Shown here in pieces: positions 3,654 through 36,518 of a stretch of DNA of 38,651 nucleotides (position 1 is its first letter; each line of letters starts with the position of its first letter). Source of the DNA: a virus. Position numbers and translations under genes: made by a program. The DNA is taken from IMG/VR virus record IMGVR_UViG_3300036401_000359, positions 1 to 38,651 of that record, one strand, 5' to 3'. Below the pieces are notes generated by a model, which saw only the letters and a program-made list of their open reading frames with translations, did no database searches and was not told where the DNA came from.

Positions 3654-3662
3654 GGCTCCCCG

Positions 3663-3854: not shown

Positions 3855-3863
3855 GCGCGGTAC

Positions 3864-4406: not shown

Positions 4407-4459
4407 CAGGCTCCCCCTCGCATGCGCGCATGATCGCAGGAGTCGCTGACGACCACCAT
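4406..4459 (-). CDS. Possible 17-residue micro-ORF bridging two TGATG junctions
   Basis: The 54-base frame MVVVSDSCDHARMRGGA starts inside the stop of the tail-hub gene (TGATG) and ends inside the start of the next gene (TGATG). It contains that gene's ribosome binding site. It may simply carry ribosomes across the gap for translational coupling. Being so short, it could also be chance. Confidence 0.25.
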   Translation of the reverse strand: MVVVSDSCDHARMRGGA

Positions 4460-14686: not shown

Positions 14687-15023
14687 CGTCACCTCCCTTC
14701 GCTTGTTTGGGCGGATCCTGTGCCGCCGGTTCCTTTCGCACGCCGATCCCCATCGCCTGCAACTGGCTCGAGGACGGCCGCCTACGCCGCTTGCCGCCCG
14801 TCACCTGGCGCTGCATCGAGTCCAGGTACTGGGCGCGTGGACGCTCCTCCATCATCAGGCCACCAGCCGCGATCAGCGCCTGGTGCAACTCGATCGCACG
14901 CTCGGCCTGCAGCCGTGGCAGCATCGTCGCGTACGCCTGCAGCCACGGCTGGGGCACGTCCTCCCACGCCCCGAACTTCGGGTCACACGCCCCGTAGAAC
15001 GCATGAAGGCGCGGGATCAGGTC
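14664..15023 (-). CDS. Tail assembly chaperone, second (-1) frame
   Basis: This is the downstream part of a gpG/gpGT-type tail assembly chaperone pair, which coats the tape measure during tail assembly. The frame reads DLIPRLHAFYGACDPKFG (immediately past the end of the first frame), then WLQAYATMLPRLQAERAIEL and a basic tail, a pattern typical of the second chaperone frame in actinophages. It lies in the -1 frame relative to the upstream gene, and that frame is open well upstream, so a -1 ribosomal frameshift is the likely route of expression. The first in-frame GTG is at 14957, but it would discard the conserved-looking segment. No canonical X-XXY-YYZ heptamer was found by eye. It ends inside the tape measure start region. 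Confidence 0.65.
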   Translation of the reverse strand, partial: DLIPRLHAFYGACDPKFGAWEDVPQPWLQAYATMLPRLQAERAIELHQALIAAGGLMMEERPRAQYLDSMQRQVTGGKRRRRPSSSQLQAMGIGVRKEPAAQDPPKQAKGGDDGRRAPR

Positions 15024-15547: not shown

Positions 15548-15808
15548 CTACTCGGCGGGCAACGTAGCCTGTGGCTCGGCGTCACCCGCCTGGACCTGCT
15601 CGCCGGCGTCGTTCTCTTCAACGAGACGCACACCGAACGCGGCCCACTTCTCGCGCAGCGCTTTCAACTGCTCGCTGTCCGCGCGAAGCCGCTCGCGTGC
15701 GGCGCGAATCCTGCCTCTCTCGCGCCGCACGCTCGTCTGTAGACGCTCGGCCTCCGCTCTCGCGTCGGCCTCAGCGCCGGCTATTCCTGCGCCGCGAATT
15801 CCGCCCAC
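15548..15808 (-). CDS. Small coiled-coil protein between tail tube and chaperone
   Basis: This protein of up to 86 residues is dominated by an Arg/Glu/Ala-rich helix (about 12-62, with heptad spacing in AERLQTSVRRERGRIRAARE) and has a short acidic tail. The start is uncertain. GTG at 15808 overlaps the tail-tube gene by 28 bases and has only weak ribosome binding; an internal GTG near 15748 is the alternative. No family is recognised. Its location suggests a tail-assembly accessory function, which is inference only. Confidence 0.45.
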   Translation of the reverse strand: MGGIRGAGIAGAEADARAEAERLQTSVRRERGRIRAARERLRADSEQLKALREKWAAFGVRLVEENDAGEQVQAGDAEPQATLPAE

Positions 15809-16359
15809 TTCCCGGCTTCGATTTCGAGCACGTCGAACTGCAGCGCGAGCATCGCCGGACCCGCTTTCAGCGAGAATTTCGGCGCCGGGTTACCCGACTG
15901 GCAGCACGCCGAGATCTCATACTGGCCGACGTGCGCTTCGTTCAGCGTCGACGTGCCCCGCAGAACCATCGCGTAGTAGTGCAGTTTGATGCCTCGTTTG
16001 AGCTGGAAGCGCTGTTCCGCGTTCGCTCCCGTGATCGTCGTCACCGCCGCGCTGTCCATGATCAACGCGTACTGCTTCGGCGAGAGATCGACGAGTTCGA
16101 ACGCGACGCTCATCGACTCTTCCGTACGCCATTTCTTGCGCGGCGACACAGCACCGCAGGACACGAACGCCTGCTGCGTCTGGCTGTGCGTGACCGTCAC
16201 GCCCGAGTCGTTGTAGTTCAGGTCGCCCGAGGTGCCGATCTTCGTCCACGTCGACGGGAACGTTTCTTCCGCGGTGGAGAGTTTCGGCATGGCGGTGCCC
16301 ACCGCAGCAACCCACGCGGTGAACGGCGCTGCGATGACTTCTGCAAGTTCAGCTGGCAT
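15781..16359 (-). CDS. Major tail protein (tail tube)
   Basis: This 192-residue protein has the size and position of a siphoviral tail-tube protein, after the tail terminator and before the chaperones and tape measure. It has the usual mixed beta composition: a short N-terminal helix, a KIGTSGDLNYNDSGVTVTHS segment, an FELVDLSPKQYALIMDSAAV helix-strand block and a C-terminal strand pair (MLALQFDVLEIEAG). The start is ATG at 16359, overlapping the end of the upstream gene by 11 bases. It polymerises around the tape measure. The call is based on context plus general pattern. Confidence 0.72.
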   Translation of the reverse strand: MPAELAEVIAAPFTAWVAAVGTAMPKLSTAEETFPSTWTKIGTSGDLNYNDSGVTVTHSQTQQAFVSCGAVSPRKKWRTEESMSVAFELVDLSPKQYALIMDSAAVTTITGANAEQRFQLKRGIKLHYYAMVLRGTSTLNEAHVGQYEISACCQSGNPAPKFSLKAGPAMLALQFDVLEIEAGKWAEFAAQE

Positions 16360-18809: not shown

Positions 18810-19832
18810 TCAGGTGCTCACGCACGCGCCGAAGAACTCGGCGAGATCGGGAGCGGTGATGCCCTGCGTGAACGCGGTGCGGCACTGGATGATGTCCGAG
18901 TGCGCGAGCTCTTCGCGCCCCCGCTCCAGGATCCCACCGAACGCGTTGTCCAGCCCCGGGAGGAGACCGGTCCACGCGAACGAGTAGCCCGCGCTGGGCT
19001 CCGCGATCGACGGTGCCGGCGCCGCGTACACGAGCAGCGCCGCCTTGCGGTTGACGATGAAGTTGATCTTGTCAGCTTCACCCTCCGCGTTTTCGTTGAT
19101 CACGCCACCCGGGATGAGCACCTTGTCCACGTCGAACAGCTCAGCGAGGATCTCAGCGGTGACGATCCCTCGCTGCGTGAACTTGATGCGTTCCACGACG
19201 GCGGGGTGGTTCTTCAGGACCCGGTAGGTGTCCTTGCCGAGCACCAGGATGTTCGGCTCGTACCCCGTCTTCGACTCCACGTCGATGCGGCGCTGGTCGA
19301 AGAACTCGATCGGTTCCGAGCCCGCCTGGTCGAACTGCAGGAACTTGCCGACCGCTTCTTCTTCTTCGACTTTGGAGGGGGCTTTTTCCTTGCCTTCCCA
19401 TTCGGTCGTCCACACGCCGGCCTTGAAGTATTCCGCGGCCCACAGCCGGTCGCGGTGGATCATGGCCTGCGTCCGCAGCAGACGCTGCGCCGCGTGGTCG
19501 GGCTCGAGCGAGTCAACGTCGTAGTTGGCCCGCTCGCGGTCGTCGATCGCCTTCTCGAGCGCTTCCTCTTCGATCGAGTAGTGGCCCTTTTCGGTGCCGT
19601 ACCCGATCTGTTTGGGACGCCCGCCCATCGGACGCGCCGCGAATTCGTCGCGGTAGAAGTACCCCTTCTTGTAGACGGGGTAGTTGTCCGATTTGTTCGT
19701 CACAGGGACGGTCGGGAACACCTGGCCGGCGACGAACTTGGACTCCTCCTGAGCCCAGACGATCGCCATGTCGGTCAGGTAGTGATCGATGTGGAGATCG
19801 TTTGCTGATGGCTGAGCTGCCACTTGGTTCAC
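18810..19832 (-). CDS. Major capsid protein
   Basis: This 340-residue protein has the layout of an HK97-fold capsid protein. An N-terminal region contains KFVAGQVFPTVPVTNKSD and YPVYKKGYFYRDEFA. There is a long helical segment with ALEKAIDDRERANYDVD, and then a C-terminal domain with NILVLGKDTYRVLKNHPAV and VDKVLIPGGVINEN. The FVAGQVFP...V...YPVY pattern is characteristic of one widespread capsid group in soil phages. The start is GTG at 19832; the closest upstream purine-rich signal, AGGAAGG, lies very near it, so GTG at 19823 is an alternative. It follows the decoration gene after a 96-base gap and precedes the connector genes. Confidence 0.85.
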   Translation of the reverse strand: MNQVAAQPSANDLHIDHYLTDMAIVWAQEESKFVAGQVFPTVPVTNKSDNYPVYKKGYFYRDEFAARPMGGRPKQIGYGTEKGHYSIEEEALEKAIDDRERANYDVDSLEPDHAAQRLLRTQAMIHRDRLWAAEYFKAGVWTTEWEGKEKAPSKVEEEEAVGKFLQFDQAGSEPIEFFDQRRIDVESKTGYEPNILVLGKDTYRVLKNHPAVVERIKFTQRGIVTAEILAELFDVDKVLIPGGVINENAEGEADKINFIVNRKAALLVYAAPAPSIAEPSAGYSFAWTGLLPGLDNAFGGILERGREELAHSDIIQCRTAFTQGITAPDLAEFFGACVST

Positions 19833-21294: not shown

Positions 21295-22062
21295 CTAGGC
21301 CGCGATCGGCGTGCGCACTCCGGTACCTGCGATCGAGAAGCCAGTGCGCTTGCCCTCCTCGATCTCCTGCTTCAGGACCGGGTCGTGCACCTGCCACGCC
21401 TGGACCCAACTGCCCGCCGTGACCGTTTCCTCGGTCCCGTCGGCCATCTTCACGACGAAGTCGCACGGGGCGATGTAGTTCTCGATCAGGTCCGCCTTGA
21501 CCACCGAGCCGTCGTGCTGAACGTCTGCTTGGCGCGAGAGCACCATGAACTCGTGGCACGCCTTCTCGATGTCCTCGGCGGCCAGCACGTCCTTCTGGAC
21601 GTCTTCGCGGTCGGGCGCGAGCACGACGCCGTACACCTTCCCCTCGCGCTCGCCCTTCCACAGCGACACGTCAGCGCTCCACTCGTCCGCGGGCTCCTCG
21701 GCCTTCTCGGTCGCGCCCGCGAGCGGGTTCGCGATCCCGAGCGCCTTCGCGCGCCGTGAGATCAGCGCCTTCGCGGCACCCACGTCCCCGTGACCGGAGC
21801 GCGCGAGCACCGCCGCCGCTTTCACGTCCTGCGCCGTCTCGATCGGGTAGGACACGTGCCCGTCCGACCCGCGGAGCGCCTTGCCTTCTTTCGCGAGCTG
21901 CTCGCGCTTGGCCTCCGGGATGTCGCGCTTGAAGACGAGGTCTTCGAGCTTCTGCAGAGCCTCGGTATCCACGGCACCTCCCTTGCGGCGCCGCTTCTTC
22001 TTCGCGGCGCCGCCCATGTAGTGATCGGTGTGGAGCGCGTCCGCTCCCGGCTCGGCGGCCAT
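21295..22062 (-). CDS. Capsid maturation protease, XkdF/Peptidase_S78_2 type
   Basis: This 255-residue protein has a Lys-rich N-terminal region (KKKRRRKGG), a middle helical segment and a C-terminal XkdF-like domain. The domain contains KVYGVVLAPDREDVQKDVLA, a CHEFM helix, VVKADLIENYIAPCDFVV and SWVQAWQVHDPVLKQEIEEG, ending with GKRTGFSIAGTG. This is the signature order of the phage serine protease family XkdF (Peptidase_S78_2), which cuts scaffold during head maturation. The start is ATG at 22062, overlapping the upstream stop as TGATG. It is followed by the scaffold gene. Confidence 0.85.
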   Translation of the reverse strand: MAAEPGADALHTDHYMGGAAKKKRRRKGGAVDTEALQKLEDLVFKRDIPEAKREQLAKEGKALRGSDGHVSYPIETAQDVKAAAVLARSGHGDVGAAKALISRRAKALGIANPLAGATEKAEEPADEWSADVSLWKGEREGKVYGVVLAPDREDVQKDVLAAEDIEKACHEFMVLSRQADVQHDGSVVKADLIENYIAPCDFVVKMADGTEETVTAGSWVQAWQVHDPVLKQEIEEGKRTGFSIAGTGVRTPIAA

Positions 22063-22502: not shown

Positions 22503-22790
22503 CTACCGCGAGCTGACCCGCAGCAGTTCGAGTTCCTGTTCCGCGCCGGCGGCTTTCACGATGGCGGTGAGCGCCTGGCCCTCGCCGAGAGCCACTTCGA
22601 GCACGCCGTTGCCCGGCACTTCCCAGCCCGCCGCTTCCGTCGCGACCGGTTTGGGAGCTTCCGTCGGGGTCGGGCCGTGTGCCCCGACCTCGTAGAAGAC
22701 AGCGGCGGTGGCGGTCTTGTTGCGCACCAGCACCTTGCCGGGGCCGCGGACAACCTCAGACGCGGCGGCGGCGTTCACTTTCGCTCTCAT
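22503..22790 (-). CDS. Small beta-rich protein, unknown
   Basis: This 95-residue protein has an N-terminal MRAKVNAAAASEVVRGPG, a strand-rich KVLVRNKTATAAVFYEVG segment, a Pro/Thr-rich linker and a GNGVLEVALGEGQALTAIVK end. Composition suggests a small immunoglobulin-like or decoration fold. The start is ATG at 22790, coupled by ATGA to the methyltransferase gene; the longer in-frame version overlaps that gene almost wholly and is rejected. It may be a virion surface protein, possibly related to the modification genes beside it. Confidence 0.5.
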   Translation of the reverse strand: MRAKVNAAAASEVVRGPGKVLVRNKTATAAVFYEVGAHGPTPTEAPKPVATEAAGWEVPGNGVLEVALGEGQALTAIVKAAGAEQELELLRVSSR

Positions 22791-23434
22791 GCTCGGCTCC
22801 TTGGCTCGTAGAGGATCTGCTCGGGACGGTCGCGGTAACCGTCGATGCGAGGGTCCCCCGTCACGAACAGCCCGAAGCCACCCCATGTCTGCCCGGCGAA
22901 CGGGCCCTTCGCGAACGTGTATCCGGCCATGAACTCCTCGTCGCGGTAGACGATGCCCTGCAGGTCGGGGATTCGGCGCACGCCCTCGCGAACCTCCGCG
23001 TTCGCGGTGTCGTGCACCAGGACCACGGTGCGCTGACACACCGGCGATCCCAGCAGCGCCAGCAGGTCCCTCTGCACACCATCCGCGGTGTGGTCGCCGT
23101 CGACGAGCGCGAAGTCGACGTCGCCGGGGCACTCGTCCTCGAGCCACGCCGGCAACGTGACCGCGCTGTCACCGGCGTGGAAGCGGACGTGCGGCTCGAG
23201 CCCGACGAGCTCCTTCAGGTCGAACGCGTGTACGCGCGCGGAGTGGCGCGCGAGCCGCGCGAGGCTGCCGCCCTCGGCCACACCGACCTCGACCGCGAGC
23301 TTCGGCCGCAGCTGGCAGAGGATGCCCTCCAGCGCCGCGCGCTCGGCGAAGCTCATCTGCGTGCGCTGGTCCTTCAGCAGCGGGATCGGCGCGTTCGCGA
23401 GCGGCCGCGGGATGTTCCCGTTGGCGTGGCTCAC
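22787..23434 (-). CDS. Class I SAM-dependent methyltransferase (Methyltransf_24-like)
   Basis: This 215-residue Rossmann-fold methyltransferase has the SAM-binding motif LAVEVGVAEGGSLARLA (about 47-63), an acidic ribose-binding position after it (VHAFDLKEL) and a DFALVDGDHTADGVQRDL block, typical of Methyltransf_24 enzymes that act on sugars or small molecules. The start is GTG at 23434, overlapping the RCC1 gene stop as GTGA. It lies in the accessory block that also holds two glycosyltransferases. Methylation of a glycan on virion proteins is a reasonable inference, but the substrate cannot be read from the sequence. Confidence 0.75.
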   Translation of the reverse strand: MSHANGNIPRPLANAPIPLLKDQRTQMSFAERAALEGILCQLRPKLAVEVGVAEGGSLARLARHSARVHAFDLKELVGLEPHVRFHAGDSAVTLPAWLEDECPGDVDFALVDGDHTADGVQRDLLALLGSPVCQRTVVLVHDTANAEVREGVRRIPDLQGIVYRDEEFMAGYTFAKGPFAGQTWGGFGLFVTGDPRIDGYRDRPEQILYEPRSRA

Positions 23435-24876
23435 TTCGGGGTGGCGGTCACGATCCGCGTCCCGAAGTTCGTGTCGTGCACACGCACTTCGTAGGGCTGG
23501 CCCGGCGTGAGACCGCGGAACGTGTCCGTGCGTTCCGCCGGCGCGAGTCGGGAGTACGTCCACGCCGACAACGGGTGCGTCACGGGCCGGATCCCCATGA
23601 GCCATTTCGAGGTCTCGCCGCCGTCACGCCACTGCGCCGTGATCGACCCTTCGCCCGCGGTCCCCGTCAGCACCGGCGGCGGCGCCGGCCCGGAGATCAC
23701 AGCGTTCGCGCTGTGTTCCTGGCTCGAGACCTGCAGCACACCGGTCTCTTCGATGCGGCCCGGTGTCGTGTGCGGCGCACTGAAGGTGCCCTGCCCGAGC
23801 TCGCCGTGCAGGTTGAAGCCCCAGCTGAAGCCGAGCGCACCCGTCCACGCGAACGCGAACCCCGCACCGGCGTTGATCCCTTCCACGCCCGCGAGCCCCG
23901 GCACCTGCACCGGGACCTTCGAGCACGGCCGCGACCCAGTGCCCGCCACGACGCACGTTTCGGGGCCGGTGCCGACGCCGAGCTCGCCGACTTCGTTTTC
24001 GCCCCACGTGAAGACGTGGCCGCCGGCGATCGCCATGCTCTCGTCATCGCTCGTGGAGACCGCCGTCACGCCGGCGAGGCCCACCACCTTGTGGAACGTG
24101 CCGGTGACTTCGAGGGCGCCGTCTCCGAGCTGCCCGTAGCGGCCCGCGCCGTCCGCTTCAACCGTACCGTCGGTGCACAGGATCAGGATGTGCACCGCCT
24201 TGGTGGGGTTACCGCCCGCGGCAACATCGGCGACGGGGCAGTGCGCGGGCATCGGGGCAGGCCGCGTGTGTTCGCCTGCCGGCGGCCCGAGCTCCCCGGC
24301 CTTGTTCTGGCCGAACCCGAGCAGCTGGCCGCTCGAGGTGAGCACGATGTTGTCGGGGCCGCCCGCCCACACCTTCACGACACCGGCGAGATGTTCGACG
24401 AGTTCAGGGGTGGGCTGCCCGTATTCGATCCCGGTTTTCAGGCCCTTCGCGGTGAACCCATTGCCGCCCTGCCCGTACCCGTCAGAGCCGCATGTATAGA
24501 CGGTCCCCGCGGTCGTGCGCGCGATCAGGTGCGCGCCACTCGCGGACACTTCCGCGATCCCGTGCAGCAGCGTCGGCTTCGGGCTCGCGTTGACATACCG
24601 GATGCTCTTGCGGCCGTTGCAGTCCTGCCCGTAGTTGTCGCCGCCCCACGCTTCGACGGTCCCGTCCGCCATGCGGGCGTACCCGTTGTTGGAGCCCGTG
24701 ACGACTTCGACGGGCGGCGCCTGCAGCAGCGTGGCGACGGCCAGCGTGTTGCCGCCGGTGTAGCCCGCGCCGAGCGGGCCATGCGAGTTTTCGCCCCAGC
24801 CCACGACGGCGGCGGACGCCGGCGCGGCGAGGGTCAGCAGGGCCGTGGCGAGCACGGCGAGGACGGAACGTCTCAC
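23431..24876 (-). CDS. Secreted RCC1-repeat beta-propeller with C-terminal fibronectin type III domain
   Basis: This 481-residue protein has a clean Sec signal peptide (RRSV, hydrophobic 5-18, cut after ASA at 22). Seven RCC1-type signatures follow: WGENSHGPLG, WGGDNYGQD, CGSDGYGQGG, FGQNKAGELG, GAGRYGQLG, WGENEVGELG and WGFNLHGELG. Together they predict a complete seven-bladed propeller. Residues about 395-481 look like fibronectin type III (GEGSITAQW to GLTPGQPYEVRVHD). The start is set at GTG 24876 because GAGAGGAG lies just upstream; ATG at 24894 is possible but leaves a longer, poorer leader. Such exported propellers are common in actinobacterial, particularly Thermoleophilia, genomes and rare in phages. 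It may bind a ligand at the cell surface. Confidence 0.85.
   Translation of the reverse strand: MRRSVLAVLATALLTLAAPASAAVVGWGENSHGPLGAGYTGGNTLAVATLLQAPPVEVVTGSNNGYARMADGTVEAWGGDNYGQDCNGRKSIRYVNASPKPTLLHGIAEVSASGAHLIARTTAGTVYTCGSDGYGQGGNGFTAKGLKTGIEYGQPTPELVEHLAGVVKVWAGGPDNIVLTSSGQLLGFGQNKAGELGPPAGEHTRPAPMPAHCPVADVAAGGNPTKAVHILILCTDGTVEADGAGRYGQLGDGALEVTGTFHKVVGLAGVTAVSTSDDESMAIAGGHVFTWGENEVGELGVGTGPETCVVAGTGSRPCSKVPVQVPGLAGVEGINAGAGFAFAWTGALGFSWGFNLHGELGQGTFSAPHTTPGRIEETGVLQVSSQEHSANAVISGPAPPPVLTGTAGEGSITAQWRDGGETSKWLMGIRPVTHPLSAWTYSRLAPAERTDTFRGLTPGQPYEVRVHDTNFGTRIVTATPK
24494..24501 (+). repeat. GTATAGAC site 4 (inside RCC1 gene)
   Basis: Exact octamer, flanked as ATGTATAGACG. On the coding strand it reads GTC-TAT-ACA (Val-Tyr-Thr), a third codon phase relative to sites 1 and 2. 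Confidence 0.7.
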
Positions 24877-24886: not shown

Positions 24887-25279
24887 TCAGACATGGGCGT
24901 AGGGGTCCTTGAACGGACGCTCTTTGGCGGTGGTTCGCACCGCGCGCTGCACAGCTTTGAACGCCTCCATGCGCATCCATCCACGGAGGTACTTCAGGCG
25001 GGCGTTCTTGACGTTGCGGCCCGCGCTCGCGGGCACCCAGGCTTCGGCGCCGCGGTACGCCGCTTCGAGCGCGGCCTGTTCGATGTCCTCCGCGGGCACC
25101 AGGCCCCCGTGGATCCCGCCGAGCATTTTCGCGAACACCCGCAGCGCCGCGAGCTCCTCTTCCGTGATCGCCTGCTGCGCACGGCGGTGCTCGTTCATGC
25201 GGCGCTTGGCCTGCATCGCCACGAGGTCCTGCACGGGGCCGCAGCCGAGAACCGCGATGCCGGCGAGCGGGTCGCTCAC
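24887..25279 (-). CDS. Helical protein of unknown function
   Basis: This 130-residue, largely helical protein has a short N-terminal stretch SDPLAGIAVLGCGPV, an Arg/Gln-rich helix (AMQAKRRMNEHRRAQQAI), a central region with KMLGGIHGGLVPAEDIEQAA, and a basic C-terminal helix (RNVKNARLKYLRGWMRMEAF). The start is GTG at 25279, overlapping the TGA of the upstream secreted-peptide gene as GTGA. This junction lies at the edge of the 36-base tandem repeat. I do not recognise the family. It could be a small internal virion protein. Confidence 0.5.
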   Translation of the reverse strand: MSDPLAGIAVLGCGPVQDLVAMQAKRRMNEHRRAQQAITEEELAALRVFAKMLGGIHGGLVPAEDIEQAALEAAYRGAEAWVPASAGRNVKNARLKYLRGWMRMEAFKAVQRAVRTTAKERPFKDPYAHV

Positions 25280-25575
25280 GGCGCGGGGGTGAGGGTCCGG
25301 CCTTGCGCTTCGAACGGCGCGGGGGTGAGGGTCCGGCCTTGCGCTTCGAACTGCGCGATCGGCTCGCACCCGGTCACGGTCTTGCCGTGCGCGTTGATGT
25401 ACGTCTGGTGCTTCACGCACAGCGTCGGCGGCTTCAGGTTCACCGGCGGCGCGATCGCCGACGCGAGTTCCGGCGCCGGCGACACCACTTCGGCGTGGCT
25501 CGGGATCGCGTGCATGAGCAGCACGAACGCCGCGAACCCCGCGAGCCACGCCACCACCTGCAGACGCACGCTCAT
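25276..25575 (-). CDS. Small exported protein with duplicated C-terminal 12-mer
   Basis: This 99-residue protein begins with a hydrophobic signal or anchor (about 4-22, VRLQVVAWLAGFAAFVLLM) followed by HAIPSHAEV, a plausible signal peptidase site. The mature part contains two Cys (KPPTLCVKHQTY and VTGCEPIAQ) that could form a disulfide. It ends in two identical copies of FEAQGRTLTPAP, encoded by a perfect 36-base tandem repeat. The start at 25575 is coupled by ATGA to the membrane-anchored fibre gene. The two neighbouring genes also encode exported or anchored proteins. Function is unknown. Confidence 0.6.
   Translation of the reverse strand: MSVRLQVVAWLAGFAAFVLLMHAIPSHAEVVSPAPELASAIAPPVNLKPPTLCVKHQTYINAHGKTVTGCEPIAQFEAQGRTLTPAPFEAQGRTLTPAP
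25280..25351. repeat. Perfect 36-bp tandem repeat, two copies
   Basis: Bases 25280-25315 and 25316-25351 are identical. The repeat is in frame (12 codons per unit) at the 3' end of the small exported-protein gene. The second coding copy carries the stop codon and the GTGA coupling signal to the next gene. Confidence 0.95.
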
Positions 25576-27215
25576 TTCGAGAAGGTGCCCTGCACGGCGA
25601 ACCCAGGGTTCGCCGTGACTTTCGATTTCGACGTCACGACACCCGTGGTCGCGATGTTCAGGTTGATCGTCGCCGCCGTGCTCGTGCTCCCCACGACGAC
25701 CGTTCGTTCATGTTCGGGACGGTCAGCGGCCGGCAGCTTGAAGATCGTCCCCCCGGAGTTCACTTCTTCCGACGTTTTGGCGACCATGCCACCCCGCAGG
25801 TAGATCAGCCCGTTCAGGTTGGCCGCTTCGACGTGCGCCCCATATGCGGTGATCGGTTCGAGTTTGGCGTTGAATTCTTCGACTTCGGTCCAGGTCAGCG
25901 ACGAGGAACCGCAGCCCGTGCACGATTCGACGGTGAGCGCCCCGTTGATCGTCACCGCTTTCGTGCCGGTGAGTTCACCTTCGATCAGCTGTTTCGCACC
26001 GGACCCGTTGCCGATGATCAGTTTGTTCGCGCACGTCGTGAGTTCCTGGCCCACTTTGTTGCCGATCAGGTCACAGAAGCCTTCACCGGTTTTCACTTTG
26101 TTGCCCGCGGCGAACCCGAGCTCGACCATGCCTTCGACCGATTCGTTTTCCGTGCCCGAGTAGTTGCCCACCGCGACGTTGTCGTTGCCGCTCGTCAGTT
26201 CGCGGAGACATTCGGTGCCGAGGCACGCGTTTTTTTCGTGGGTGACGGTCGATTTCGCGGTGTTCTTCCCGAACTCCGCCTTGCGGCCCACACCGACGTC
26301 TTCGTGCCCGGTCGCTTTCCCTTCCGTCGGGCCACGCCCCGCTTCAGCACCGACGAACGTCGAGTCGTGCCCTTTGGTGAGGTGCTGGCCGACGTCGTTG
26401 CCGATCAGGGTCTCGCGGAAGGATTCGCTGCCGGTTTCGGCTTCTTCCCCTGCGGCGGTCCCGATGGCGGTCTCGCCTTCGAGTTCGGTCGCGAGCCACA
26501 TGTTGTCGTCGCCGACGAGGACGTTGTATTTGCCTTTTTTGTAGGCGTTCCCCGCCTGGTAGCCGATGCAGTCCGTGCTCGACGCACCGGTTGTCGCGGC
26601 TTTGCAGGACTGCACCCCGTAGCCGGTCATGAATTCGGCCGCGGTGCCGGCGACGTTCAGCGATTCTTTCCCGCCCGCGAGGTTCGTGCCCGTTTCGACG
26701 AGCGCCCCGCCACCCGCGGCGCACCACACGAACGAGGTCCCGGATTCGTAGCAGAGCCGTTTTTCGGCGGCGGGCGTGCCGGTCGCTTTCACGGCGGTGG
26801 GCGTGACGGTGCTGGCGCCGAAGCTCGATTCGACCGTTTTGCCCGAGGCGCCAGAGACGAATTCGCCTTCGGCCTTCGTGGCTGCGGTGCCGAGCCCGAG
26901 GTTAGTGCGGAGCGTCGGTTTGTTGCCCGACGTGAAGGCCGCGCCCGTCAGCGCTTCTTCGATTTCGGCCTGCGTTTTGCCGCCACCCCCACCGGTGATC
27001 GTTTCCCAGTGGGTGTTGTAGTTGGCGTTCGACGCCTTCGTCAGCGACTGGCCCGTCGTGCCGCCCGCGGGGAGCACGCCGTTGGGGACCGCGCCAAGCT
27101 TGTGGTGCACGGGCGCGTGCGAGTTGCCGTGGAGGTTGAGGCCGATGCCCACCCCGAACGCGAAGACCACCAGGGCCACCCCGCAGATCCACGCCAGTGC
27201 ACGTCTAGTTGACAT
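25572..27215 (-). CDS. Membrane-anchored fibre-like protein with YadA-head-type repeats
   Basis: This 547-residue protein has an N-terminal hydrophobic segment (about 7-29, LAWICGVALVVFAFGVGIG). A linker follows with the NANYNTHWETITGGGGGK pattern common in tail fibres. Residues 190-410 hold many degenerate repeats of the form IG-x-x-AG: IGYQAG (217), IGTAAG (251), IGNDVG (271), VGAEAG (288), VGNYSG (349), LGFAAG (366), IGNKVG (384) and IGNGSG (401). These resemble the left-handed beta-roll of trimeric adhesin heads. The C-terminal domain is beta-rich. The start is ATG at 27215 after GGGAG; an ATG at 27230 is possible. A membrane or signal segment on a phage fibre is unusual. The likely role is receptor binding or modification of the infected cell surface. 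Confidence 0.65.
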   Translation of the reverse strand: MSTRRALAWICGVALVVFAFGVGIGLNLHGNSHAPVHHKLGAVPNGVLPAGGTTGQSLTKASNANYNTHWETITGGGGGKTQAEIEEALTGAAFTSGNKPTLRTNLGLGTAATKAEGEFVSGASGKTVESSFGASTVTPTAVKATGTPAAEKRLCYESGTSFVWCAAGGGALVETGTNLAGGKESLNVAGTAAEFMTGYGVQSCKAATTGASSTDCIGYQAGNAYKKGKYNVLVGDDNMWLATELEGETAIGTAAGEEAETGSESFRETLIGNDVGQHLTKGHDSTFVGAEAGRGPTEGKATGHEDVGVGRKAEFGKNTAKSTVTHEKNACLGTECLRELTSGNDNVAVGNYSGTENESVEGMVELGFAAGNKVKTGEGFCDLIGNKVGQELTTCANKLIIGNGSGAKQLIEGELTGTKAVTINGALTVESCTGCGSSSLTWTEVEEFNAKLEPITAYGAHVEAANLNGLIYLRGGMVAKTSEEVNSGGTIFKLPAADRPEHERTVVVGSTSTAATINLNIATTGVVTSKSKVTANPGFAVQGTFSK

Positions 27216-27693
27216 TCCAGTTGCTCCCATCTGAGGTGAACTCGGCCTGCGAGTACGGTTCGACGCTGGAGAGTTTGATGCTGGCGGCTTTGGCGAACAG
27301 CGGCCCGTAGTATTCGCCGCCCGCCGCGGCGATCGTCATGGTCACGGCGATCGCTTCGGGCGCCGTGTTGATCACCTTGAACGTGTAGCCCTTGTACGCC
27401 GACGCTTTCGGCAGTTCGACCGTCGCGCTCGAGGTGGTGACGAAGATCGTGGCGACGGGCTGCACCGGTTTGTAGGTGCCGCCCGTCGAGACGGTGTGGT
27501 CCCGTTTTTCGGTGAACGCGACCGCCGCGATCAGCGCTTCGACTTCTTCCGCGGTGAGGCCCGTGCCTCCGCCACCAGGCGCCCAGTGCGCCGCCTGCGC
27601 GCTCGTCGCGGTCAGCACCTGGCCGGCCGCGGGCACGCCGGTGATCGTGAGGAGTTCGGCGGTCGTCGGGATGATTATCCGGCTGCCTGACAT
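27205..27693 (-). CDS. Fibre-like structural protein
   Basis: This 162-residue protein carries the modular pattern of phage fibre components. A short N-terminal unit (TAELLTITGVPAAGQVLTA) runs into APGGGGTGLTAEEVEALIA. A beta-rich body follows (TYKPVQPVATIFVTTSSATV, then AYKGYTFKVINTAPEAIAVT), with a C-terminal SDGSNWNVN typical of the ends of fibre beta-sandwich domains. The start is ATG at 27693 behind AGGGGGACC. It overlaps the start region of the longer anchored fibre gene, whose N-terminal linker shares the same style. It probably forms part of the host-contact apparatus. Confidence 0.6.
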   Translation of the reverse strand: MSGSRIIIPTTAELLTITGVPAAGQVLTATSAQAAHWAPGGGGTGLTAEEVEALIAAVAFTEKRDHTVSTGGTYKPVQPVATIFVTTSSATVELPKASAYKGYTFKVINTAPEAIAVTMTIAAAGGEYYGPLFAKAASIKLSSVEPYSQAEFTSDGSNWNVN

Positions 27694-27700
27694 GGTCCCC

Positions 27701-27907
27701 CTAGAACGTGGTGGCGACGAGCGCGCCGGACGGGTCGAGCGCGAGGTAGACGGGTTCATCGCCCGCTTCGCTGCACCCGCTGCTGTCGTAGAACGCGACC
27801 CCCGCGTTCACGCCGTACGTGCTCTTCATCCCGAGCCCCGGCAGCACGACGCGCCCGTCGTCGTCGTTCTGCAGGGTCGCGAGTTCGGTCGAGAGTTCGA
27901 TGCTCAC
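27701..27907 (-). CDS. Small beta-rich protein, unknown
   Basis: This 68-residue protein contains ELATLQNDDDGRVVLPGLGM, a GVNAGVAFYDSSGCSEAGDE middle and a VYLALDPSGALVATTF end. The start is GTG at 27907, overlapping the GT2 stop as GTGA. Size and position between a glycosyltransferase and fibre genes suggest a virion accessory or fibre-joining protein, but no family is recognised. Confidence 0.45.
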   Translation of the reverse strand: MSIELSTELATLQNDDDGRVVLPGLGMKSTYGVNAGVAFYDSSGCSEAGDEPVYLALDPSGALVATTF

Positions 27908-28404
27908 GCTGGGTCCACCAGCACCGTGACATCCTCGTGCCAGCACGGCGCACCGCACCACTCGTCGCCGCACACGCTGCAGATGAAGTCGAAGTCGCCC
28001 TCGTACCTGGCACCCCACCGGTGGCGCACCGCGACATGGCCGGGCACGCACACCATCTGCGTCGAGACGTTCCCGCACACAACCTGCTGCTCGGCCCACA
28101 GCTCGACGCCGCTCGCGTAGCGCATCCGGAAGAGGTGCACCGCCTCCGGCGCCGACCCGAACGCCGCGCGCACGATCGCCAGCGCGAACGGGGTATAGAC
28201 GTCGTCGTCGTCGATGAACAGCATCGCGTCGCCCTCAGCGCGGCCCATCAGCCGGTTGCGGGCCTCGTGCCCCCAAGGCGCGTTGTCGTTGACGTCGACG
28301 AGCAGCTCGTCTCCGGGGTGCAGCTGCGGCGAGATCGACTGGAGAGTGCGCTCCAGTGTCGCGCGGCCGCTCGAGGCGACGATCACGGACAGCGTCGGGG
28401 TCAC
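27904..28404 (-). CDS. GT-A-fold family 2-like glycosyltransferase
   Basis: This 166-residue minimal GT-A domain begins TPTLSVIVASSGRATLERTL, the usual first strand and helix. It continues with a QLHPGDELLVDVND segment and an acidic metal-binding motif FIDDDDVYTPFAL, the counterpart of the DXD motif. Cys residues at the end (CSVCGDEWCGAPCW) may bind zinc or structure the acceptor site. Family 2 enzymes use nucleotide-sugars as donors. The start is GTG at 28404, coupled by GTGA. A GTATAGAC site overlaps the acidic motif. It is close to a GT4-like enzyme and a methyltransferase, suggesting glycan decoration; the acceptor is unknown. Confidence 0.75.
   Translation of the reverse strand: MTPTLSVIVASSGRATLERTLQSISPQLHPGDELLVDVNDNAPWGHEARNRLMGRAEGDAMLFIDDDDVYTPFALAIVRAAFGSAPEAVHLFRMRYASGVELWAEQQVVCGNVSTQMVCVPGHVAVRHRWGARYEGDFDFICSVCGDEWCGAPCWHEDVTVLVDPA
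28193..28200 (+). repeat. GTATAGAC site 5 (inside GT2 gene)
   Basis: Exact octamer within GGGTATAGACG. On the coding strand it reads GTC-TAT-ACC, directly after the run of Asp codons of the metal-binding motif. Confidence 0.7.
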
Positions 28405-28631
28405 GATTCGAGCAGCCTGTGTCCGCCGCCGCCCGCGGGATGGTCGGGGTGGTGGTGCTTGCAGACAGGGTGGCCATGCCGCGGGTTGATGTGCCACTGC
28501 AGCCGCGGGCAGCCCCGCATGTGGCAGTTGTGGGTCCGCCACCACATCAACGGGTAGCCGAGCACGAGCACGGCGAACGTCGCGAGTTCGATGAGGCTGT
28601 CACCGAAGACGCTTTCCTGTAGGAACTTCAC
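28401..28631 (-). CDS. Small membrane protein with Cys/His-rich tail
   Basis: This 76-residue protein has an N-terminal amphipathic part (KFLQESVFGDSLIELA), one hydrophobic segment (about 13-30, ATFAVLVLGYPLMWW) and a tail rich in His and Cys (NCHMRGCPRLQWHINPRHGH, then VCKHHHPDHPAG), a likely metal-binding cluster. The start is GTG at 28631, sharing GTGA with the GT4 stop; its stop shares GTGA with the GT2 start. Sandwiched between two glycosyltransferases, it may recruit them to the membrane. That is inference. Confidence 0.5.
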   Translation of the reverse strand: MKFLQESVFGDSLIELATFAVLVLGYPLMWWRTHNCHMRGCPRLQWHINPRHGHPVCKHHHPDHPAGGGGHRLLES

Positions 28632-29728
28632 AGCGCCTCCGCGTGCTCTGCGCGGTTCACGCGCGCCTGTTCCCACGCTTCGCACCACCGCGCCGCGTTC
28701 ACCTCGTAGGTGTGCTCCCGTGCGACGACTTCGCGGGCGACCATCGCGCTCTCGATCCGCAGGCTCTCGTCGATCATCAGCGCCGTGAGCTCGCGCTTCC
28801 AGTCACGCGAGCGCCACTTCGCGAGCCGGCCAATGCCTTCCGAGAACAGCCGCTCATACTCGGGTGTGGGCGAGGCCACGAACGGAACGCCACGGGCGGC
28901 GTACTCGATGCCCTTCAGGTAGGACTTCGCGCGGTTGAAGGGCGTGTCCGCGAGCGGGACGATCCCGACGTCGAGGAGTCCCAGCCCGCGGTGGTAGCGG
29001 TCGACGGGCACGAACCCCGTGTCGTCGGGCTCCTCGCGCAGCCCGAGCTGCTCGTGGATGTCGCGCGCCGCACCCACCACCGCGAACCGCCACCCGTCCG
29101 CGCGGTCGAGGGCTTCGCGGACGCCGGCGCCGGGCGCGCGCATGTCACCGACGTGCATGCTCACGTCCCCGGCCCACCCGAGGGTGCGCCCGTCACTGAA
29201 CCGCTCGAGCTCAAGGATGGACGCCGGGATGCAGTTCGGCAGCACCTGGTAGCGGCCGTGGGGGGCGTACCGGTCCGCGAGCGCCTGCGTGGTGCACGTC
29301 ACGAGGTCCGCTTTCGCGCACGCGCTCTCGAGGTGCTGCCAGTTCAGGGCGGGCGACGTCGCCGGTTGGAACTCGTGGTAGTGGGGGTGCGTCGGCGGGA
29401 TCACGGACGGGTCGTCGTCGATGTCGACCACGATCGCGGCGCCGCGCCGGCGCATGCACGCGATCGCCTCCAGCAGCGACGCCTTCGCGGGGCGGGTGAA
29501 CACCGCGACGTCCTGCTGCACCTCGTTCAGGCGGTAGCCCTCCGCGTCGCCTTTGCGCTGCGGGCGCACGGTGCACACCACGCGGCCGACGTCGTGGCTG
29601 GAGTGGACCATGAAGTCCCCGACGAACACGTCGACGTCGAGCCCTTCCGCGCGGGCGACACGGGCGGGCTCCTCGAGCCGGTAGAAGGACGAGCCGTGGG
29701 TGTCGGCGGGGAAGACGCGGATGAACAT
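28628..29728 (-). CDS. GT4-like glycosyltransferase
   Basis: This 366-residue GT-B-type enzyme has an N-terminal Rossmann half with FIRVFPADTHGSSFYRLEEP and IVVDIDDDPSVIPPTHPHY. The C-terminal half has LGWAGDVSMHVGDM, a GLGLLDVGIVPLADTPFN block, KSYLKGIEYAARGVPFVAS and SPTPEYERLF. The pattern D-x-G-x-x-P-L, then K-x-x-E-Y-x-x-x-G-V-P-x-V, is the donor-nucleotide region of GT4-like enzymes. The start is ATG at 29728, overlapping the portal stop as TGATG. The gene opens the accessory block that follows the portal. A sugar-transfer role on virion proteins or host glycans is likely; donor and acceptor are unknown. Confidence 0.82.
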   Translation of the reverse strand: MFIRVFPADTHGSSFYRLEEPARVARAEGLDVDVFVGDFMVHSSHDVGRVVCTVRPQRKGDAEGYRLNEVQQDVAVFTRPAKASLLEAIACMRRRGAAIVVDIDDDPSVIPPTHPHYHEFQPATSPALNWQHLESACAKADLVTCTTQALADRYAPHGRYQVLPNCIPASILELERFSDGRTLGWAGDVSMHVGDMRAPGAGVREALDRADGWRFAVVGAARDIHEQLGLREEPDDTGFVPVDRYHRGLGLLDVGIVPLADTPFNRAKSYLKGIEYAARGVPFVASPTPEYERLFSEGIGRLAKWRSRDWKRELTALMIDESLRIESAMVAREVVAREHTYEVNAARWCEAWEQARVNRAEHAEAL

Positions 29729-32619
29729 CAGTCGAGCACCGGGGAGAAGGACTGGGTGGAGTCGGGGTGCTGCAGCGCGGCGGCTTCGCGGGCCTCGTCG
29801 ATCGGGATGATCTCGCCGTCGCGCGGCGCGCCGTCGCCGCCGTTGCCGAGTGCCTGGACCCGCGAGACCTTCCCGGTCGCGTGGTATGCCTCGACGCTGG
29901 CCTGACGCTGCAGGTTGGAGGTCTCGGTGCGCGCGATGAGCCCCGAGCGCCATTTCGCGCCGGCGAGACGGAACCGGCCGCGCGGCACGTTCTCGCGGAT
30001 CCGGGCGGCGACCTGCGTGTGGTTCTCGCCGGCGGCGAGACCGTCCGCGATCGCGCCGTGCACCGCGTCACGGACCTGTGGCTCGAGGTCGCGCACCCGG
30101 AGGTGGCGGCCCGAAGACTGGCGCATGCGCGCGAGCGCGCGCTCGTCGATCCTGGCGTCCGCGCCGAGCTGGCCGCGCACGAGGCGCTGGGTGTCCTGCG
30201 CCACGCGTCCGGCGTGCACGGCGAGGACTGGCCGCAGCCGCTCGCCGACCCACCGGTTCACGCCGGTGCGCGCGACGACGGCGCCGGCGGCCTGGTCGGG
30301 GTTGCGGCGCTTGGTCTGGTCGAGCGACGCGTACGCGCGCGCGGCGTGCGCACCGAGCTCACCGAGCGCACTGTCCATGTCGCGCTCCAGCTGAGAGGAC
30401 AGCACGCCGTGGCGCTGTGCGAGCTCCTGGGAGAGGTCCAGCACCCCGGTCTCGGCCTTCGCGAGCGGCTCGCCGGTGAGGGGGAAGTCTTCGCGCTGGC
30501 CGGCGCGCACGAGCGACATGTGCGTGAACCGCAGCGGCAGCGCCGGCAGCTCCGGGATCTCCCTCGTGGGCTGCTCGTAGCCGAGAGTGATGTGCGGAGT
30601 GAAGCCGTGTTCGCTGGACACGGTGTACCCGGCGCGGCCGAGATGGTCGACGAGGTGGTGTCGGGCGTGCGGGAGGCCGGGCACGTCGGGGCTGGCGTAT
30701 AGACACCGGCCGTCCTGGGTGGCGTTGAAGACACCGGCGCCCTGGATGGAGCCCTCCAGCGGGGCGGTCGACGCCGCGATGCCGCGCACGACGTCCGCGA
30801 GACGGTCCGGGTCCTGCAGGTCCGCCGCGGGCCCCAGGTAGGCGAGCGTGAGGTGCAGCTCGGCGGGGTCCTCGCCACCGGTCTGAGCGATCCTGCGCGC
30901 GACCTCCTGGTCGGGGTACAGCGCGACCATCGCACCCGTGTGCGATTCGGCCTTCTTGATGTGGTCGCGCTCGGTCGGCTTCGCCGGCGTCCGCGGTTCG
31001 TCCGCAGACCGGCCGGGCGTTTTCTCTTCCAGCTGCTTCGGGGGCTGCTGGCCGGGCCCGTCCTCGTTGCCCCACGCCGGGCGCCACTGGCTGTCGTGCG
31101 CCGTCGGCGAGGGCTGCGCGGGCGGCATGAGATCGTCCCATTCGGGTTCGGGGAGCGCGCCCGCCCTGAAGAGATGCTCGATCAGGCCCTTCGACCACGG
31201 GACCTGCGCGCCGGCGAGCGAGATGTTCGTCAGGAATTCGCCGACGAGCCGCAAGTCGATGCGTCCCGCCGAGGAGTGCCGCAGTTTCGGCATCTTCTTC
31301 GGGTGCATCCCGTTCAGCGCCAGCAGCCGCGGGAAGCCGTAGCGGTTGACGACCTCGCACATGAGGTCGAGGATCGCGTCGATCGCGACCCCGAACAGTT
31401 CGGCCTTCACGTCGACCATTGCGTAGGAGCCCATGCCGTCCTGGCCGATCGAGAGGAAGTCCGCGAGCACGCTCGTGAGCATCCGGTTTTCGTAGCGGCG
31501 GATCACCTCGTCGGTGTCGAGCTGCCGCGAGCCGCCGGTGTTCATCAGTTCGAGCGTCCACTCGCTGTTGGGCTTCACGACGCCCTCGTCCTCGTCGCGG
31601 CGGATGTCGCGGACCATGTCCTTCGCGATCTCCAGCAGCTCGCTGTTTTCCGGGGCGAGCAGGTCGACGCCCGGCGGCGGCGCGGCGACGGGGATCCCCG
31701 CGAGGTCCCGCTCGATGCCGATCGCCTCGATCGCCTGGATGTTCTGGATCGCGTAGTAGGACGTCCACGCGTTCCGCAGCAGCGACCGGCCCTCCGGGTT
31801 CTGGCGGGTCGTCTCGGTGCGGAACAGCATCGCCTTGCCGATCGGGATGATGTGGCGGCCGCCGTGCCAGTCGATCTGTTCCATCGCGCGCAGCCCGGCG
31901 TACCCGCGGAACCACCAGCGCATCAGCGTTTCCTGTGCACGAATCGGCAGCTTGCGCCACCCGATGCGACCGTCGCTGTACTGGCTGGAGGGCGGGACGG
32001 GGTCGACGTCTTCGCTGCGGACGTCCCCTTCGATGTTGACGTCGAAGTCGTCGAGGATCGTCGGGAGCGGCTCGCCACCACGGCGGTACTTGTAGACCTC
32101 CTCGTGGAGCGCCCACCCGTACCCGCACATCGAGAGCGCTTCGCTGATGAAGTCGAGCCACGTGTGCGACATGTCGTGCATGCAGGACTCACAGAACCCG
32201 AGGTCCTGGCCGCTGATGGGGACGTCGTCCTCGACGGAGAATTCGACCTGGCGCGCAAGGCTCTTGATCGCGAAGATGATCCCGCCGGCGGTCGGGCTGT
32301 TGTCCATCATTTCCCTGTAAGCCCACGCGCCATACCGGCCGCGGAGCTTGGGGAGCCACTCCTCCAGGACGAACCCGCCGTACTGCTTCAGCCCCGAGGT
32401 GCCGATCTCGCCGCCGAGCTCGGAGGAGACCTCGCGGTTGGAGACACCGCGGCGCGTGAGCCGCGTGTCCGTGCGGCGGTTGGTCAGCGATACGCGGGTG
32501 CGCTGCTTGGGCTCGACGGACCGCACGCCAGCTGGCAGCACGAGCCCGCTGCGAGGCAGCACGGCGCGCGTGGTCGCGAGCCCGTTGCCGTTGCTCGAAT
32601 TGATCGTCGAGCCGGCCAT
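29728..32619 (-). CDS. Portal - 2H phosphoesterase - MuF triple fusion
   Basis: This 963-residue protein has three parts. Residues 1-510 are a Mu gp29/DUF935-like portal (GGIIFAIKSLARQVEFSVE, MLFRTETTRQNPEGRSLLRN and ENRMLTSVLADFLSIGQDG). About 560-715 is a LigT-like 2H phosphoesterase with both histidine motifs, HLT (589-591, in HLTLAYLG) and HIT (676-678, in HITLGYE). About 785-960 is a MuF head-morphogenesis domain (RSGLIARTETSNLQRQASVE), though its usual Cys cluster is missing. The start is ATG at 32619, overlapping TGATG with the upstream gene. Portal-MuF fusions are known; an inserted 2H enzyme is not typical. The 2H unit would sit inside the capsid and could enter the cell at infection. 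Confidence 0.85.
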   Translation of the reverse strand: MAGSTINSSNGNGLATTRAVLPRSGLVLPAGVRSVEPKQRTRVSLTNRRTDTRLTRRGVSNREVSSELGGEIGTSGLKQYGGFVLEEWLPKLRGRYGAWAYREMMDNSPTAGGIIFAIKSLARQVEFSVEDDVPISGQDLGFCESCMHDMSHTWLDFISEALSMCGYGWALHEEVYKYRRGGEPLPTILDDFDVNIEGDVRSEDVDPVPPSSQYSDGRIGWRKLPIRAQETLMRWWFRGYAGLRAMEQIDWHGGRHIIPIGKAMLFRTETTRQNPEGRSLLRNAWTSYYAIQNIQAIEAIGIERDLAGIPVAAPPPGVDLLAPENSELLEIAKDMVRDIRRDEDEGVVKPNSEWTLELMNTGGSRQLDTDEVIRRYENRMLTSVLADFLSIGQDGMGSYAMVDVKAELFGVAIDAILDLMCEVVNRYGFPRLLALNGMHPKKMPKLRHSSAGRIDLRLVGEFLTNISLAGAQVPWSKGLIEHLFRAGALPEPEWDDLMPPAQPSPTAHDSQWRPAWGNEDGPGQQPPKQLEEKTPGRSADEPRTPAKPTERDHIKKAESHTGAMVALYPDQEVARRIAQTGGEDPAELHLTLAYLGPAADLQDPDRLADVVRGIAASTAPLEGSIQGAGVFNATQDGRCLYASPDVPGLPHARHHLVDHLGRAGYTVSSEHGFTPHITLGYEQPTREIPELPALPLRFTHMSLVRAGQREDFPLTGEPLAKAETGVLDLSQELAQRHGVLSSQLERDMDSALGELGAHAARAYASLDQTKRRNPDQAAGAVVARTGVNRWVGERLRPVLAVHAGRVAQDTQRLVRGQLGADARIDERALARMRQSSGRHLRVRDLEPQVRDAVHGAIADGLAAGENHTQVAARIRENVPRGRFRLAGAKWRSGLIARTETSNLQRQASVEAYHATGKVSRVQALGNGGDGAPRDGEIIPIDEAREAAALQHPDSTQSFSPVLD
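30697..30704 (+). repeat. GTATAGAC site 6 (inside portal fusion gene)
   Basis: Exact octamer within GCGTATAGACA. On the coding strand it reads GT-CTA-TAC, with neighbouring rare TGT and CTA codons, inside the 2H phosphoesterase domain. Confidence 0.7.
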
Positions 32620-32901: not shown

Positions 32902-34452
32902 TTAGCGTCCGAAGCCGGACAGCATGTTGTGGTGTGCGCGCGCGCGCAGCGGCTCTTGCCAGCTGCGGCGGCGCAGAAGGATGGGCGCGCCGACTGTGCC
33001 GCCGGCGCCGCGCCAGAGCGCGTGGATCACGGCCTCGCCGACGTCGGGGGACCGGCCGATGCGCTTGCGCAGATCGTCCTTGGACTCGATCTCCACCTTT
33101 CCGCTCGAGCCGACCTTCCACCGCGGCGCGATGAGGTCCGCCAGCAGCTGCTCGTCGGGAGGGAGTTGCACGTCGTGGCCGTTGGCGGGGTCCAGCAGGT
33201 CCCGGGCGCGCCACCACGCCGCGGCCTTGCAGTCACGGAACTGCAGCTCGCCGGACCGGTCGCGCATCTCCGTCTTCTCGGACGCCTTGAACGCCACCGC
33301 GGCGTACCCCTGCTCGCGCAGGCGCGGCGGGATGCCGGCGCCGATCCCGATCGCGTCGACGATCACCGGCGGCTTGCCTTCGGCGCCCTGGAGAGCGATC
33401 ACGGCGTGGCCGGTCGCTTCCATCACGTCCCCGCGAGGTACACGGCGTATCTCGTCGATCCGCAGGCCGTAGCGGAGGGCAAGGGTGGTCTGGTCGCCGC
33501 CTTCTTCAGCGACGTCCATGCCGATGCACGTCAGTTCGGTCTTCTTCGGCCGGTCGTGTTCGTGCCAGCGCGCGACCGCGGCCTCGACCCACGCGAGCGG
33601 GATCACACCGTCGGCCTCGTTGGTCGCGAACTCGCCCTCGACGCGGTTTTGGAAGACGGCGGAGTCCTTGCCCCACTGCTTGGCGCGAGCGTCCGCCCAC
33701 TTCTGCCCCATCCGGCCGGCGGCTTTCACCATCGCTTTGGTGACGTGCACCGCCGTCCAGTCTTCGGTGCCGGGCTTGCGGGCCTGGATGTCGTAGAAGC
33801 GGCCGACGGGCTCGCCCGGTGTGGAGCTCGCGATCGCGAACGCCTCCTGGCCGGTCTCCTCGCCGGCCCCGGAGAACGCTCCCTCGGAGGCGTCGAACGT
33901 CTCGGCGGGGATCGTCTTCGCCTCGTCGTAGACGTAGAGGAGGCTGTCGGCGTGCGCGCCCTCGATCGTGGCGGGGTCCTCGCACGCGACAGCGAGCGCC
34001 TCGCCGTGGTTGAGCCGTAGCCCGAGCCGCATCATCTCGTCCTGTCGGAACGGGTGGCGGCCGATCACTCCCCACCGCAGGCGCATGCTCCACTTGCGCA
34101 CCTCGGGCCACAGGTACTTCTCCAGCTGACGCCATGCGGACGCGGTCGTGATGATCTTCCAGTCGACGCCGCGCGCGTCGCGGGTGAGCGCGAACCAGAG
34201 GATCAGCCACGCGGCGCAGGTCGTCTTGCCGAGCCCGTGCGGGCCACGGACACACAGCCGGCCGTGTTCGACGAGCAGCCCGGCGTTCTCGAGCTGGTAG
34301 TCGGTCGGCCCCTCGTTCTCCTTGTGGCGGATGCAGTCGCGGATGAACCCGGCTGGGTCGTCGAAGTATTGCTCGACACCACCGCCGGGCGGGTCCAGCA
34401 GGTCCGCCGCGAGCGCGAAGGGGTCAGCGACAGCGGGTGAAGCGAGATCCAA
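32902..34452 (-). CDS. terL: Terminase large subunit
   Basis: This 516-residue DNA-packaging motor has an ATPase half with Walker A GPHGLGKTT (70-78), Walker B LLYVYDEAK (171-179; catalytic Glu177) and coupling motif SST (210-212). The RNase H-like nuclease half has the acidic residues Asp313 in GMDVAEEGGD, Asp366 in IVDAIGIG and Asp470 in SPDVGEAVIHALW. It cuts the concatemer and pumps DNA into the procapsid through the portal. The start is TTG at 34452 with GGAGG seven bases upstream; no better ATG start lies in frame. No separate small terminase gene is apparent, although one of the upstream small genes could serve. Confidence 0.95.
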   Translation of the reverse strand: MDLASPAVADPFALAADLLDPPGGGVEQYFDDPAGFIRDCIRHKENEGPTDYQLENAGLLVEHGRLCVRGPHGLGKTTCAAWLILWFALTRDARGVDWKIITTASAWRQLEKYLWPEVRKWSMRLRWGVIGRHPFRQDEMMRLGLRLNHGEALAVACEDPATIEGAHADSLLYVYDEAKTIPAETFDASEGAFSGAGEETGQEAFAIASSTPGEPVGRFYDIQARKPGTEDWTAVHVTKAMVKAAGRMGQKWADARAKQWGKDSAVFQNRVEGEFATNEADGVIPLAWVEAAVARWHEHDRPKKTELTCIGMDVAEEGGDQTTLALRYGLRIDEIRRVPRGDVMEATGHAVIALQGAEGKPPVIVDAIGIGAGIPPRLREQGYAAVAFKASEKTEMRDRSGELQFRDCKAAAWWRARDLLDPANGHDVQLPPDEQLLADLIAPRWKVGSSGKVEIESKDDLRKRIGRSPDVGEAVIHALWRGAGGTVGAPILLRRRSWQEPLRARAHHNMLSGFGR

Positions 34453-36446: not shown

Positions 36447-36518
36447 GGCGCCCGGCAGGAATCGCACCTGCGACCTCCCGCTTGATACACGGGTGCTCTG
36501 CAACTGAGCTACGGGCGC
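36447..36518 (-). tRNA. Aberrant tRNA, apparent anticodon AUC (Asp-type)
   Basis: The 72-base cloverleaf has a 7-bp acceptor stem (GCGCCCG/CGGGCGC), 4-bp D stem (GCTC/GAGC), 5-bp anticodon stem (CCCGT/GCGGG, with one T-G) and 5-bp T stem (GCAGG/CCTGC). The loop GTATCAA gives anticodon ATC, which would read GAU. Oddities: the D loop AGTTGCA lacks the GG pair, the T loop TGCGATT has G instead of T at position 55, the discriminator is C, and no CCA is encoded. It is in the same direction as the genes and lies between two small genes. It may be a specialised or degenerate tRNA. Confidence 0.7.

Follow-up and report, generated by a model that had tools for sequence, protein, structure and literature searches.

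An IMG/VR tailed-phage record carries, in a variable block among its late genes, a gene for a protein that combines a predicted Sec signal peptide with a seven-bladed RCC1-type propeller and a fibronectin-III-like C-terminal domain (the RCC1-FN3 protein). A homologue of the same architecture, L040, is encoded by a second phage, G001. The export signal and the host-like origin of the protein are well supported at the sequence level, and we consider it quite probable that the protein is exported and acts outside the cytoplasm. Since the export tag and the same design recur in another virus that is otherwise different, infected cells probably deliver the protein to the outside. Our preferred reading, of moderate confidence, takes the gene to be accessory, late and host-like in origin, with an exported propeller that would work outside the membrane as a binding protein.

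Gene model and domain architecture

The window, by which we mean the whole stretch of DNA analysed, corresponds to an IMG/VR virus record; it is 38,651 bases long and has a GC content of 0.69. The RCC1-FN3 gene and the parts of its product were delimited as follows.

23431..24876, minus strand: gene for the predicted exported RCC1-FN3 protein, 481 aa, GTG start (ORF, start with Shine-Dalgarno, Pfam)
24811..24876, minus strand: predicted Sec signal peptide MRRSVLAVLATALLTLAAPASA (scorer; L040 has its own signal in the same place)
23692..24810, minus strand: seven-bladed RCC1-type propeller, with an N-terminal strand closing blade 7 (AlphaFold2, VIA-align, PF25390)
23434..23691, minus strand: fibronectin-III-like C-terminal domain (seven strands in the model, L040 match, FN3con profile match)

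GTG 24876 lies just downstream of a strong Shine-Dalgarno sequence (GAGAGGAG, then ACCC, then GTG), and the coordinates of the original prediction proved right. The alternative start ATG 24894 was dropped because it has no Shine-Dalgarno sequence. Two Pfam families scored over their curated cut-offs, the RCC1-like domain PF25390 (181.3 bits, cut-off 150, E 4.5e-53) and the RCC1 repeat PF00415 (76.9 bits, cut-off 21.7, E 1.7e-21). Seven blade signatures, the number first proposed, are found in the 481-aa protein with starts 49-61 aa apart; five of the seven match a relaxed pattern, which shuffled sequences matched 0.28 times on average and 4 times at most, and the remaining two are degenerate.

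AlphaFold2 run from the single sequence reached a pLDDT of only 34, and a 15-sequence alignment was used instead, giving a pLDDT of 85.4 and a pTM of 0.84. In the resulting model, seven blades of four strands each form a closed ring, a seven-stranded beta domain stands apart from it, and the strand directly after the predicted cleavage site closes the last blade. In VIA-align searches the best fold match was HERC2 RLD2 (7q40; Z 49.8, 348 residues aligned, 1.7 A), and human RCC1 (Z 47), UVR8 (Z 45) and BLIP-II (Z about 31) were also matched. The model and the match to 7q40 bear out the closed propeller that had been predicted from the repeat count.

The fibronectin assignment of the C-terminus is tentative. 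The region is modelled as a separate seven-stranded domain, is 44-45% identical to the corresponding domain of L040 (E 1e-8), and a two-sequence profile of the window and L040 homologues matches FN3con with an E of 2.5e-4, but Pfam fn3 (PF00041) scored 14.6 bits, below its cut-off of 25. Searches of IMG/VR with the FN3 domain or with the two-member profile brought up no third member.

Predicted export through the Sec pathway

The N-terminus, MRRSVLAVLATALLTLAAPASA|AVVGWG, reads as a textbook signal peptide with two arginines, a hydrophobic core and the cleavage region APASA|AVVG; the basic n-region, the core and the AxA cleavage site predict Sec-type export. Signal-peptide calls were made with a simple home-made scorer rather than SignalP, and when the first 60 aa were shuffled 20,000 times, 8 shuffles scored as high as the native sequence. 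The cleavage region APASA|AV of this protein contains no cysteine and hence no lipobox. The mature proteins of the window and L040 have even numbers of cysteines (6 and 2, respectively) and have one cysteine pair in common, in a loop of blade 6, as expected for an oxidising compartment. The signal sequence of L040 differs from that of the window protein but occupies the same position before the first blade. A lack of signal peptides among homologues would have spoken against the original reading of a secreted protein; L040, the only close architectural homologue, has one of its own. Export is therefore the best reading, given that a signal is kept at 40% identity, that the cysteine counts are even with a common pair, and that the protein is close to secreted bacterial proteins (see below).

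A second phage with the same design

A search of IMG/VR with the window protein alone returned no matches, nor did a motif pattern with the GPExC loop; L040 was found with the GC-biased pattern WGxNxxGxLG. It is part of IMGVR_UViG_3300050134_000025 (G001), 23,552 bases long with a GC content of 0.57 over the stretch read. Like the window protein, the L040 protein (470 aa) starts with a signal peptide and ends in an FN3-like domain, with seven PF00415 repeats in between; the overall identity of the two proteins is 40%. In G001 the genes run from the tape measure through two minor tail proteins, a collagen-like fibre and further baseplate- or fibre-like proteins to a fibre; after a 12-nt gap come the RCC1-FN3 gene, a coiled-coil membrane protein, a holin-like gene and a lysozyme. 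One of the tail proteins is similar to those of Arthrobacter and Streptomyces phages. The genes flanking RCC1-FN3 differ between the two phages. G001 was not recovered with the window portal or capsid as probes; it is a fragment and may lack those genes.

Genomic context and the accessory block

Late genes of a tailed phage occupy the window, and almost all of them are on the minus strand. The genes used to define the context are listed below.

32902-34452: TerL
29728..32619, minus strand: portal protein with an inserted 2H/LigT domain, one border of the variable block
28628..29953, minus strand: glycosyltransferase (PHROGs 7162, E 1.8e-33), kept here in two relatives (L004 and L005)
27904..28545, minus strand: family 2 glycosyltransferase
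27205..27759, minus strand: short fibre-like protein (judged from sequence; no family match above cut-off)
25572..27215, minus strand: fibre-like protein with an N-terminal signal anchor (weak PHROGs virion and tail-spike matches; hydrophobic N-terminus)
25276..25575, minus strand: small protein that carries a signal peptide of its own and ends in a duplicated 12-aa unit
24887..25216, minus strand: small ORF directly upstream of the RCC1 gene, start assumed at ATG 25216
22787..23356, minus strand: SAM methyltransferase (Methyltransf_24, RMNT_CmcI-like), downstream of the RCC1 gene
21295..22062, minus strand: XkdF-like head protease (PF14550, E 8.6e-26), the other border of the variable block
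18810-19832: major capsid protein
15781-16359: likely major tail protein
8078-14692: putative tape measure, 2,204 aa
near 2264-3280: lysin-like gene, putatively GH25-like

The reading of the RCC1 gene as a chimeric assembly or host fragment was ruled out, since same-strand phage genes lie on both of its flanks and G001 repeats the situation. Between portal and protease the block contains two glycosyltransferases, two fibre-like genes, the small secreted protein, the small ORF, the RCC1 gene and the methyltransferase. The small ORF at 24887..25216 had no match in Pfam, PHROGs (searched with a longer ORF), NCBIfam or PADLOC, and PADLOC gave no match to anti-phage defence. The duplication in 25276-25575 is exact, spans 36 bases and lies at the end of the gene. 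A plausible ribosome-binding site precedes ATG 27215 of the fibre-like gene 25572-27215, whose signal anchor is unusual for a phage fibre.

This block is missing or different in relatives. In L004, whose capsid is 76% identical, the match to the 28628..29953 glycosyltransferase is followed 27 bp on by the match to the XkdF protease, against a spacing of 6.6 kb in the window; in L005 the spacing is 1.6 kb and holds another methyltransferase. In L009 the portal-protease gap is taken up by a coiled-coil membrane protein, a VIT-family membrane protein gene at 4519-4932, and an ORF that looks FN3-like by eye but has no match in Pfam. The records of L004, L005 and L009, which are fragments, gave no RCC1 match. 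We conclude that the gap is a cargo site and that the RCC1 gene lies outside the conserved virion set. No promoter- or terminator-like sites were seen on the coding strand of the block, which is weak evidence as the promoters of this organism are not characterised; together with the gene order it tentatively suggests that the RCC1 gene is expressed late.

Elsewhere in the window, the 2'-5' RNA ligase/LigT (2H phosphoesterase) domain of the portal is inserted at residues about 559-715. Among relatives, this domain is absent in L008 and L009, fused to the head protease in L012 and to a downstream head gene in L013 and L016; it is mobile within the head module and possibly a counter-defence enzyme. 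The N-terminal signal of the putative GH25-like lysin ends in LSGC, a lipobox, and this product may be a lipoprotein. A tRNA-Asp at 36447-36518 has the anticodon ATC, the usual one being GTC.

Relationship to other RCC1 proteins

Among the viral RCC1 ORFs gathered from IMG/VR and GenBank, only those of the window and L040 have a signal peptide, and about 36 others lack one; the single scorer match in L042 is internal. In several phage RCC1 proteins the N-terminus is of fibre type or the gene has a fibre neighbour (Clostridioides LIBA6276, Synechococcus BUCT-ZZ01, L042, L043 and L053). One viral contig, L062, carries seven RCC1 genes in tandem at 1301-9330, none of the seven with a signal peptide.

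In a phylogenetic tree, the window and L040 formed a clade (support 99/95) separate from the main group of signal-less phage RCC1 proteins. A secreted Streptomyces RCC1 protein was placed next to this pair with weak support, and L049, a signal-less phage protein, fell outside the main signal-less group. The window branch is long, and some domains had been cut at another point of the propeller circle than others; we therefore rely on the tree solely for the pairing and for its separation from the main signal-less cluster. BLAST with the window RCC1 domain ranked a secreted Geobacillus protein (136 bits), L040 (132), Streptomyces L035 (111) and Deinococcus (102) above the signal-less phage proteins (at most 86 bits). 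The L035 ORF has no signal by the scorer, and the Streptomyces L075 protein has one by eye. This search for the closest homologues, proposed with the original prediction, fits its suggestion of a host-derived secreted protein, the RCC1 domain being closer to secreted bacterial than to signal-less phage proteins. Secreted RCC1 proteins occur in actinobacteria, some as enzyme fusions such as Rhodococcus RCC1-cutinase. A scan of GTDB contigs for exact peptide patterns had a 33% Opitutae protein as its sole match; as the scan covered exact peptides, nearer chromosomal homologues may exist.

Proposed role and alternative explanations

Propellers are binding scaffolds. We propose that the RCC1-FN3 product would be made alongside the structural proteins and exported through the host Sec pathway with cleavage after APASA, whereupon the mature N-terminus would provide the strand that closes the seven-bladed propeller and the FN3-like domain would form the tail. 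Outside the membrane, it would act as a binding protein. Our best guess is that its ligand would be in the envelope of the cell that makes it, and that the binding would keep new virions from sticking to this cell or its debris in late infection and at lysis. Presumed late timing together with the fibre and glycan-enzyme neighbours points to phage-receptor interplay at release. Actual export and ligand binding are what we infer from sequence, and outside the cell the protein might act as a receptor or debris blocker, an adhesin or a BLIP-II-like inhibitor; an anti-adsorption role taken by itself is speculative and rather unlikely. T5 Llp, an early-expressed lipoprotein, is an exported phage protein that stops adsorption to infected cells and debris (PMC9586334). 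Superinfection-exclusion proteins are usually made early (PMC9586334), and the late operon position argues against classical superinfection exclusion.

The neighbouring fibres and glycan enzymes fit a virion role as well. The protein could be an accessory fibre or a head or tail decoration, its propeller serving to bind the host surface in adsorption; the N-terminus that resembles a signal would then be a host leftover, or the protein would attach to virions after lysis. Other phage RCC1 proteins are fibre-like or adjoin fibres, GAP32 gp1 was detected in virions by mass spectrometry (PMC5259590), and the RCC1 genes of the window and G001 both lie beside fibre-like genes. Those other proteins, however, have no signal peptide, whereas the signal is kept in both members of the pair at only 40% identity; Sec export would take the protein away from cytoplasmic virion assembly, and the block is dispensable in close relatives. 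We regard a virion role as unlikely, though it is the strongest of the alternatives. A further, still less likely possibility is a late surface module, in which the membrane-anchored fibre 25572-27215, the secreted protein 25276-25575 and RCC1-FN3, with glycosyltransferases and a methyltransferase nearby, would together dress the surface of the infected cell and keep progeny virions from being lost on it.

It is also improbable that the gene is a passenger that benefits the lysogen or infected cell, for example as an adhesin or biofilm matrix component, with no role in the phage cycle. Its accessory position and the secreted actinobacterial RCC1 proteins, some fused to enzymes, would suit such a gene, but it lies in a presumed late operon, usually silent in lysogens, and beside fibre-like genes in both phages; the scanned window genes, from a record that may be a fragment, included no recognisable integrase or repressor.

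Phages encode RCC1 proteins repeatedly, in some cases with about a dozen copies. phAPEC6 has eleven, and its authors state that no information is available on prokaryotic RCC1 function (PMC7247149). We found no description of an exported phage RCC1 protein in the literature. With a signal-bearing type present in two phages that otherwise differ, exported RCC1 proteins can be told apart from those of virions, and it becomes testable whether a phage sends a propeller outside and what is bound there. If the less likely surface-module reading were true, exported RCC1-FN3 proteins, spread among phages that are not related, would represent a new class of phage effector with its site of action outside the cell.

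Comparison with known systems

Secreted bacterial RCC1-repeat proteins (Streptomyces sp. NBC_00690 plasmid WP_329012106.1 and Geobacillus WP_244319450.1) likewise have a signal peptide and seven RCC1 repeats, and their identity to the L040 propeller reaches about 40%. They differ at the C-terminus, where the FN3 tail has no counterpart (Streptomyces) or other domains follow, and they are on plasmids, in contrast to the phage late operon here. The signal-less phage proteins (GAP32 gp1 and Rak2-like; cyanophage and Clostridioides phage; PHROGs 16766, 4219 and 7220) are also tailed-phage propellers, often beside fibres and glycan enzymes, but mostly belong to another clade and often occur as tandem arrays or fused to fibre N-termini. 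Neither the window protein nor L040 has the N-terminus of the GAP32 gp1 type, which is without an export signal.

Eukaryotic RCC1-like domains (HERC2 RLD2/3, RCC1 and UVR8) are the best fold matches (Z 44-50) but are intracellular, and their GEF, ubiquitin-ligase and photoreceptor functions are not to be expected here. BLIP-II (1jtd, 3qhy, 3qi0) is a secreted seven-bladed propeller of the RCC1/BLIP-II superfamily (PMC9218822), secretion of the window protein being predicted, and demonstrates that a secreted propeller can be a tight protein inhibitor (PMC6121496, PMC9218822). With the structural match (Z 30.9, 259 residues, 26% identity) and a profile match of E 2.3e-12, this raises the idea that the protein is secreted to inhibit an enzyme of the envelope or the extracellular space, for instance one of the penicillin-binding type or a wall enzyme, belonging to the host or to competitors. 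We consider this improbable: BLIP-II blades are three-stranded (PMC6121496) and those of the window model four-stranded, the canonical RCC1, HERC and UVR8 domains match much better, and a common fold shows no function. The superinfection-exclusion proteins T5 Llp and TP-J34 Ltp resemble the window protein in being phage-encoded, exported (predicted here) and envelope-acting (PMC9586334, PMC3952083), but Llp and Ltp are lipoproteins, whereas the window protein is a propeller without a lipobox.
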